Below, in pieces: positions 1 to 2,413 of a DNA stretch of 64,000 nucleotides. Below the pieces are notes generated by a model. It ran no database searches. It had not been told where the DNA came from and worked only from the letters and a program-made list of their open reading frames with translations. Each line of letters opens with the position of its first letter. Within the stretch, counting starts at the first letter, position 1. Both the position numbers and the translations under genes were made by a program. The stretch spans positions 1 to 64,000 of the forward strand of contig JAQGON010000016.1 in NCBI GenBank assembly GCA_028293565.1, in the 5' to 3' direction. Origin of the DNA: Verrucomicrobiota bacterium (lineage in GTDB: Bacteria > Verrucomicrobiota > Verrucomicrobiia > Opitutales > Opitutaceae).

Positions 1-32
1 TAGCTCAACTGGATAGAGCAGCGGTTTCCTAA
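1..32 (+). repeat. Partial tRNA-Arg copy (attL-like direct repeat), identical to 2345..2376
   Basis: tagctcaactggatagagcagcggtttcctaa occurs at 1..32 and inside the intact tRNA at 2345..2376; the sequences diverge right after the anticodon loop (ttt vs acc). Confidence 0.9.
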
Positions 33-228
33 TTTGAACAGGCACTTTGGCCTGAATCCTCTGCAATCATACAGGGTCGAGTTTCACTCGTAGATTCCCA
101 GTTTTCTGGAACCGCGCCTCACCTGGAGTCCTCCAGAAACGGCCTAAATTTTGGCACCGGGTTACTAAAACGGGTTACATTTCCGTCATTCAAAATGAAC
201 CACGGCGGCGGGTGCCGTTGATTTAAAC

Positions 229-738
229 CTACTGGTTAGCTCTTCCTCTTCTCTCTTCGATCTTCTTTCCGTGAGCAAGGAAACGGTCTTTCAAATACTG
301 AATCACTTCTTCTGTAACTTGCTCAGTTGGCAACGTGAGGACACCTGAACGAGGAAACATTAGTAATGTATCGAATTCCGTGATGGTGAGCCGCCCGAAA
401 GCATCCCAAGTCAACTTCGAGCTTCCGATGACGGAGGATGTCTCCACGGCCTCATTGGTTAATGAGTAAACGACCGGAGCCTCGCCCTGTCGTCGCATCC
501 AATCACCTATCAGCCTCAATTGGTGGATCCAAATAAACCCAAAGAGTGCAGTGCCGAGCCCTGCTATCGAGAACCCAAAAATCGCGTAGGAGCGAAACTC
601 AGGATCGCCGTAACCTAAGAAAGAACCGACGAGAACGGCTATGTATGCGATAGCCAGCTTCCAAGCGTCATAAAAAATGCGACGTGCCAGAGACTTCTTC
701 AAGAAAGCGGCAGACAAATGAACCGAGAATTTCATCAC
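229..738 (-). CDS. YcxB-like membrane protein
   Basis: 169-aa ORF with two hydrophobic segments, then a YcxB-like C-terminal region (YSLTNEAVETSS...LTWDAFGRLTITEFDTLLMF). Confidence 0.65.
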   Translation of the reverse strand: MMKFSVHLSAAFLKKSLARRIFYDAWKLAIAYIAVLVGSFLGYGDPEFRSYAIFGFSIAGLGTALFGFIWIHQLRLIGDWMRRQGEAPVVYSLTNEAVETSSVIGSSKLTWDAFGRLTITEFDTLLMFPRSGVLTLPTEQVTEEVIQYLKDRFLAHGKKIEERRGRANQ

Positions 739-1109
739 ATTTCCGGCTAGTGTTTAATGAAGTAGCAATGCTTGCACGCCAAAATCCGGTTATCGCCGAG
801 ACGTTCGAAATCCTACTTCCGAGAATTACCAGTTACTGACAGTAGTAACAAGGAAAGGGGGCCGGGCCGGGCCACGCTGCGCGCGGCTCCGGCCTGCCCT
901 CCCTGTCTCTTGTCATTATTGGCATACCTCCTCCTAGTGTGCTCTGTAAGCAGGCCTACGCTCGCAAGTGCTGACGTCTCCTTGAGTTCACACATTTCTT
1001 CAAATCGCTTTTGAAAGGCGTGGTTGGGTTTTTAGGCGACGTTGAGTTGAGTCGCCGGAGCTCCACGCGCCGATCCCTACGGCGCTTTGCCACGGCGCTC
1101 CGCGCCTAT

Positions 1110-1130
1110 CTGGGGTTGATCCAACCCCAG
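1110..1130 (-). terminator. Hairpin just downstream of the integrase gene
   Basis: Perfect 9-bp stem CTGGGGTTG-atc-CAACCCCAG; no clear U-tract. Confidence 0.35.
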
Positions 1131-1136
1131 CCCCAT

Positions 1137-2249
1137 TTAAACGGTTGGCGGGGCCTCAGCGTGCGCGGAAAAGGTCATCCGCTTTGCCATCTCGGAGGAA
1201 TGGGTGTCGCGCAGGTGCCCGTAGGTCTTGGCCACCAGGAGACCGCCATCCTTGTGCCCGACCCATGCCGCTATGGTCTTGAAGTCGATACCGGCCTCAA
1301 TGGCGTTGCTGACGAAGTAGTGACGCATGCAGTGATGCGTGAAGCGGGGCAGCGAGGCCCGCTCGCAGGTGTTCTCAATCGCCTTCTTGGCTGTGCCGAT
1401 GGCAATGATCCTGTCCGCAGCCAGAGGGTTTTTCGTGGCCTGCAATTTCCGGAGAAACTGGTTGAGCGAGGGAAACAGCGGGACGACGCGTGCCTCGTGG
1501 TTCTTGGTTCCGAGTTCGCCTCCCGTTACGACGAAGCGTTCGCGGTCAAAATCTACGTCGCCCCACAAGATCGAAGTGGCCTCTGCCAAGCGCATGCCGG
1601 AATAGGCCAGCAGTTCGACGAGGTTGGCGGCTTCGTGATAGCGCTCATCCAATCCACGGAGCTTGGACACGAGCTTCTGAAATTCATCCTTCGAGGGGAT
1701 GACGACGCTGGATCTTCCCAGCTTCCGACGGCGCAACACCAGCGCCGGATTGTCCAACAACAGTCCTTCACGTTTGGCGAAGTTCAGGACGGCAATGATC
1801 GTGTCCCGTTCGTTGTTGTAGGTGGATGCGGCAATGTCTGTGCCGCGTGTGGTGGCCCACTGTTCGCAGTGGGTTGCCGTGATATTGCGGACCGGAGTGG
1901 GGCCCAGGTGTGGGAGCAGTTGGTCAATGCTGGTTGCCCGGCGACGTGCGGACGACTCTTTGAGCTGCGGGGTGATGGATGTGAGCCAGTGCTTAGCGAC
2001 CTCAGTGAACGTCAAGTTGCTGCGGGATTTCGTGTGATCCAAGCGCCCAACTTTCTGGCGAAATTCCGACAGGGTCCGCTCTGCCAATTTGCGGTCCGTG
2101 GTCCTGAGCGAGCGGCGATACTGCTTGCCCGCTCTTTTCACCAAGCCGTAATACTTCCCCGATGACGAATGACGGTAAAGGCATTCTGCCACCTTCTGAA
2201 ACGCGCCCGGTCTCGGCGTTTTGGCGGCTGATTTTGGCTGCTTCGACAT
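1137..2249 (-). CDS. Tyrosine recombinase/integrase
   Basis: 370 aa; SAM-like N-terminal core-binding region and catalytic motifs (ELLAYSGMRLAEA, HHCMRHYFVSNAIEAG, WVGHKDGGLLVAKTYGH); adjacent to a tRNA gene. Confidence 0.95.
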   Translation of the reverse strand: MSKQPKSAAKTPRPGAFQKVAECLYRHSSSGKYYGLVKRAGKQYRRSLRTTDRKLAERTLSEFRQKVGRLDHTKSRSNLTFTEVAKHWLTSITPQLKESSARRRATSIDQLLPHLGPTPVRNITATHCEQWATTRGTDIAASTYNNERDTIIAVLNFAKREGLLLDNPALVLRRRKLGRSSVVIPSKDEFQKLVSKLRGLDERYHEAANLVELLAYSGMRLAEATSILWGDVDFDRERFVVTGGELGTKNHEARVVPLFPSLNQFLRKLQATKNPLAADRIIAIGTAKKAIENTCERASLPRFTHHCMRHYFVSNAIEAGIDFKTIAAWVGHKDGGLLVAKTYGHLRDTHSSEMAKRMTFSAHAEAPPTV

Positions 2250-2337
2250 GCCAAAAGGGTAGGGTGATAAAAACGGGTTACAATTCTAATAATTGGCCCG
2301 ATATATTATCTCAGAAGTCATTTGTAATAAGTATTTA

Positions 2338-2413
2338 GTCCCCGTAGCTCAACTGGATAGAGCAGCGGTTTCCTAAACCGTAGATCCCGGTTCAAGTCCG
2401 GGCAGGGGCACCA
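2338..2413 (+). tRNA. tRNA-Arg (anticodon CCT), CCA encoded
   Basis: Cloverleaf can be drawn by hand: D stem GCTC/GAGC, anticodon stem GCGGT/ACCGT with loop TTCCTAA, T stem CCCGG/CCGGG, 3' ACCA; the acceptor stem has one C-A mismatch and one G-U. Confidence 0.92.

Follow-up and report, generated by a model that had tools for sequence, protein, structure and literature searches.

Islands that carry a 5' fragment of a tRNA gene were reportedly first described by Zhao and Williams in 2002 (J Bacteriol 184:859). Integration that replaces the 5' half is already documented in bacteria and is uncommon: Islander holds 159 islands with 5' fragments of tRNA gene DNA (tDNA) versus 3760 with 3' fragments (PMC4383910). 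According to a review, a tRNA gene rebuilt by an integrating element nearly always retains its original promoter, and the opposite situation is seldom met in bacteria (PMC8371274). In archaea, according to the same review, pTN3-like integrases have an int gene that is split on integration into int(N) and int(C) (PMC8371274, where Cossu et al. 2017 is cited). In this work, we analyze a small element at the beginning of a stretch of Verrucomicrobiota DNA (the window), which consists of bases 1-64000 of a 65,263-bp contig (C88) of a draft assembly of 239 contigs. The element very probably recombined at tRNA-Arg(CCT), replaced the 5' half of this gene together with its upstream DNA, and belongs to a Verrucomicrobiota lineage with the same layout.

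The present tRNA-Arg(CCT) gene lies at 2338-2413 and is the sole complete Arg(CCT) gene among the typed tRNAs of the assembly (30 of the 33 tRNA matches, plus one tRNA on contig C112), a point that an earlier reading of the window made without database searches (the sequence-only reading) had proposed to check. Bases 8-39 of the gene (2345-2376) are repeated exactly, in direct orientation, at window positions 1-32. When the whole assembly was searched for this 32-bp repeat with up to three mismatches, the matches were the two window copies and, on contig C196, a single half resembling tRNA-Arg(TCT); a reversed-sequence control gave no match at the same limit. The left copy (1-32, plus strand) is the displaced native 5' half. 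Its left edge is cut off because the contig starts at window base 1, so that gene bases 1-7 lie beyond the contig; the sequence-only reading was right about the duplication but took it to begin at tRNA base 8, whereas the displaced copies in two relatives (G002 and G003) run from base 1 to base 39. The right copy is part of the 5' half supplied by the element (2338-2376, plus strand), which comprises the acceptor strand GTCCCCG, the D arm, the 5' strand of the anticodon stem and the anticodon loop, and is followed by the chromosomal 3' half (2377-2413, plus strand). The window thus contains a 5' tDNA piece in direct orientation upstream of an intact tRNA gene, with an integrase gene between them. 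In the window and in the related elements compared, the two copies part immediately behind the anticodon loop, which fits a strand exchange within the loop; the loop TTCCTAA of the displaced copy (26-32, plus strand) is the probable exchange interval at the left junction.

Eleven relatives from the same genus were available for comparison. Nine of them have a single uninterrupted tRNA-Arg(CCT), i.e., an empty site, and two are occupied at this gene, G003 by an element of 2711 bp and G002 by one of 1699 bp, each with gene bases 1-39 displaced. In 19 elements other than that of the window both tRNA halves can be read, and they are identical from the first base of the tRNA through the last base of the anticodon loop, apart from a few bases in four elements; there is no similarity after the loop, nor before the tRNA in those inspected, where G002 alone shares the flank. 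The proposal that the crossover occurred in the anticodon loop and that the element supplied the 5' half and the DNA preceding it is therefore borne out by the same layout, with full displaced halves, in G002, G003 and 17 further elements, and by the nine uninterrupted genes. The left end of the element (33-190, plus strand) is also conserved: its first 150-160 bp are 80-94% identical among the window, G003, G002 and contig C196, and the cargo genes behind it are wholly different. The integrase is broken in G003 and missing from G002. In G002 (locus L036, 5500-7334) the duplication comprises the 5' half and some 57 bp of the native DNA upstream of it; the tRNA is thus preceded by native DNA again, and this element looks like a decayed relic in which the promoter has been restored.

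The G002 locus, with its duplicated native flank and no integrase, resembles a plain duplication, and might suggest that the upstream 5' half is simply a pseudogene created by tandem duplication, next to which an integrase lies by chance. We regard this explanation as highly improbable. A tandem duplication does not account for copies that end exactly at the end of the loop, for an integrase at near-constant distance in 69 loci and 18 tRNA species, or for the conserved left end and the repeats (see below); the conserved left end is present in G002 as well.

The same arrangement recurs far beyond the genus. When 84,980 named genomes were scanned with an integrase alignment of 11 members, 79 loci were found, and in 69 of them a tRNA lies close to the start of the integrase. 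In all 69 of these loci the integrase gene is divergent and located in front of the 5' end of the tRNA, usually at a distance of 85-170 bp; 18 tRNA species are involved and almost all hosts belong to the Verrucomicrobiota. A carrier in culture is Pelagicoccus mobilis KCTC 13126, with tRNA-Met as the target (L167). In a separate sample of the phylum, the closer relatives of the integrase showed the same layout, and more distant family members, for instance those at tRNA-Leu(TAG), tRNA-Val and some tRNA-Arg(TCT) genes, were located at the 3' end of the tRNA. We define the Verrucomicrobiota reversed-integrase lineage in this analysis by a divergent integrase at approximately 85-170 bp from the 5' end of the tRNA and by pairs of repeats spaced 13 bp apart at both ends of the element, and the window element has all of these features. 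In a quick, midpoint-rooted tree with many open forks, the window integrase falls within a set of Arg(CCT) and Arg(TCT) users with 98% support, the target changes at least 33 times among 19 target classes, and the three integrases on the 3' side of Leu(TAG) cluster together within the 5' type. The orientation of integration thus appears to have switched within the family.

Elements that can be delimited range from 1.7 to 11.9 kb, and the window element is near the minimum. One of them, at locus L125, consists of an integrase and almost nothing more. The cargo of larger elements includes a rolling-circle initiator of the ORF2/G2P kind (PF23343; 7 of the 66 cargo proteins) or genes for restriction-modification and further defence-type genes. 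At locus L128 (9661-10023), another partial 5' half occurs at the contig end, about 325 bp past the displaced half, possibly representing a tandem mini-element without an integrase.

The repeats that flank the core have a fixed geometry. In the window, the left pair of direct repeats, GGGTTACTAAAACGGGTTACA, is located at 159-179 (plus strand), and the right pair, GGGTGATAAAAACGGGTTACA, at 2262-2282 (plus strand), 76 bp in front of the tRNA. Among 70 upstream regions, 44 match at 8 or more of 9 positions at a spacing of 13 bp, and all other spacings from 8 to 20 bp gave one case. A distance of about 76 bp to the tRNA is typical of the right pair, and many elements have a matching left pair about 160 bp inside the other end; in L125 both pairs read GGGTGACAAAAACGGGTTACA. 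The repeat sequence drifts between clades, and the 13-bp spacing remains constant. From this geometry, we consider the paired repeats to be putative arm-type sites of the integrase. In G003 (locus L035, 5998-6041 and 6696-6741), the motif of the left repeats appears again within the element, at the 3' end of a second cargo open reading frame (ORF), in a cassette-like manner. A structured RNA in the conserved left end was also considered and rejected: RNAalifold predicted hairpins, but the covariation term was unfavourable (+1.2) and double changes were seen in 3 of 39 pairs.

In the mechanism that we propose, a tyrosine integrase would recombine the element into tRNA-Arg(CCT), with the crossover in the anticodon loop and in the orientation opposite to the usual one, the attachment site of the element (attP) bearing the 5' tRNA half rather than the 3' half. 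The native 5' half and the native upstream flank would then end up at the distal end of the element. The 5' half of the element, together with about 90 bp of element DNA, would be joined to the chromosomal 3' half, leaving element DNA to drive transcription of the single tRNA-Arg(CCT). The native flank stays with the displaced half, which has no upstream similarity to the rebuilt gene, so that the latter would have to use element DNA as its promoter. The layout thus suggests promoter capture, in which a single-copy tRNA depends on the AT-rich spacer of 88 bp between integrase and tRNA (2250-2337), where its present promoter should be located. The element may also still be mobile today.

Several observations weigh against this model or weaken it. 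A promoter scan of the spacer revealed no clear promoter, only one weak sigma-70-like match where 0.4 would be expected by chance. No excisionase was identified in the element. The empty sites come from other members of the genus rather than from strains of the same species, and the left junction is only partly visible because the contig starts within the left copy. Note that a search for the contig adjoining C88, using the gene upstream of the site in G003, gave no match, and that the flanks are not syntenic.

Several features are shared with known systems. As in the 5'-fragment islands of Islander (PMC4383910), the tRNA gene is split, its 5' part is supplied by the element and the native 5' fragment is displaced; in contrast to those islands, one integrase lineage is spread here over a phylum and 18 tRNA species, its repeat geometry is conserved, and its elements can be as small as 1.7 kb. 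As with the pTN3-like archaeal integrases, the rebuilt tRNA would be expressed from DNA on the integrase side, but unlike in the pTN3-like or SSV type, the integrase gene of the window is intact, divergent and located outside the core. A phage-type tyrosine integrase and a core in the anticodon loop are shared with classical tRNA-integrating phages and islands; those replace the 3' half and keep the original promoter, whereas here the 5' half has been replaced and the original promoter has presumably been lost. In the tRNA-dependent lysogeny of mycobacteriophages the host also depends on the integrated element for a tRNA, although in that case a phage tRNA complements the destroyed one, and here the tRNA is rebuilt in place (PMC10865867). 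In the part of the open-access literature that was searched, no description of this Verrucomicrobiota lineage was found.

A broader interpretation is that a single integrase lineage diversified in the Verrucomicrobiota and became specialised in capturing the promoters of essential tRNAs, in at least 18 tRNA species, the capture serving as a built-in means of retention; we give this about an even chance. If true, an element could not be lost by simple deletion, even one of 1.7 kb that contains only an integrase. The lineage would be a phylum-wide exception to the retained-promoter rule given in the review (PMC8371274), and it provides many natural replicates of foreign upstream DNA being placed before a tRNA gene that is often the sole one for its codon. 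It also offers a target-switching integrase family with a fixed site geometry, and would permit two tests, one of host tuning of element-driven tRNA expression and one of a protective effect of promoter capture against loss of the element.

A separate problem is the acceptor stem of the window tRNA, GTCCCCG/CAGGGGC, which has a U2-G71 wobble and a C6-A67 mismatch, exactly as the sequence-only reading had described. That reading took both as signs of a hybrid: an element from a host with a different tRNA would have left a mismatched stem, the native 5' strand having been GCCCCTG. The wobble does not support this. The tRNA starts with GTCCCC in all 11 genus relatives, nine of which are empty sites, so that U2-G71 is ancestral and GCCCCTG is wrong; relatives without the element, which had been proposed as a check, share the wobble, though not C6-A67. 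The mismatch is found only in this genome, the genus relatives having C6-G67, and a hybrid origin would require the native strand to have been GTCCCTG, whose U6 would cure the mismatch. GTCCCTG is possible: it occurs in another Opitutaceae element at Arg(CCT) (L147), and in one element (L138) the rebuilt and displaced acceptor strands differ by one base. However, these strands are identical in 18 of the 19 elements with readable halves; in G003, for example, GTCCCCA pairs with TGGGGGC and the displaced copy likewise reads GTCCCCA. In addition, the 5' acceptor strand of the window element equals the genus consensus and the odd base, A67 (position 2404), is on the chromosomal 3' half, where a plain G-to-A point mutation suffices. 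We therefore consider the hybrid stem unlikely, and an ordinary point mutation of the 3' half, independent of integration, the probable explanation, although the native 5' strand of this genome lies beyond the contig start. Among element-bearing tRNAs, a mismatch in the acceptor stem is rare (1 of 69, plus the window tRNA); an enrichment of such stems was considered and dropped, the comparison set being just four other tRNAs.

The window element is 2344 bp long and consists of one integrase gene and one possible cargo ORF; its GC content is 54.3% against 66.5% in the rest of the window, so the impression of a less GC-rich element was correct. The integrase (1137-2249, minus strand) is an intact tyrosine recombinase of 370 amino acids, whose gene begins 88 bp upstream of the tRNA and is directed away from it. 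The protein is of the phage type, with a SAM-like N domain and a PF00589 domain (E=3.6e-17), belongs to PHROG 1, and has the catalytic residues R-K-H-R-H-Y (R220, K249, H306, R309, H332 and Y343), which are invariant in the alignment of 11 relatives. All listed phage relatives of the integrase are below 27% identity, and its relatives in viral contigs are mostly distant, with one at 42% identity; a search of viral contigs for the left end of the element gave no match. The ORF at 229-738 (minus strand, 169 amino acids, with a hydrophobic N-terminal part) is the sole plausible cargo gene. Family searches assigned it to no family, so that in the element of about 2.4 kb previously envisaged, with an integrase plus a YcxB-like gene, the YcxB-like label is not supported. 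The element does not qualify as a phage satellite or prophage, since besides the integrase it has only this one ORF, which has no phage function.

The genome itself has another member of this element family, located at tRNA-Arg(TCT): on contig C196 (L009, 6087-6118) the conserved left end sits behind a 5' half of this gene, and contig C112 (L010, 2468-2544) has a complete tRNA. The latter has the anticodon TAT in place of TCT and two further C/G to A/T changes in its stems. No intact Arg(TCT) occurs among the typed tRNAs, yet AGA codons are present (14 of 14,906 in the window ORFs); a decayed tRNA, a strain mixture and an assembly gap are the candidate explanations. It was also considered that a single Arg(TCT) element has one end on each of these contigs, but their integrase overlaps are 6% different, and tandem elements or a strain mixture are equally likely. 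Finally, the region just behind the tRNA-Arg(CCT) gene (2428-2493) contains a REP-like intergenic repeat of 30-65 bp, which has about 45 dispersed copies in the genome (79-95% identical), some of them closely paired.
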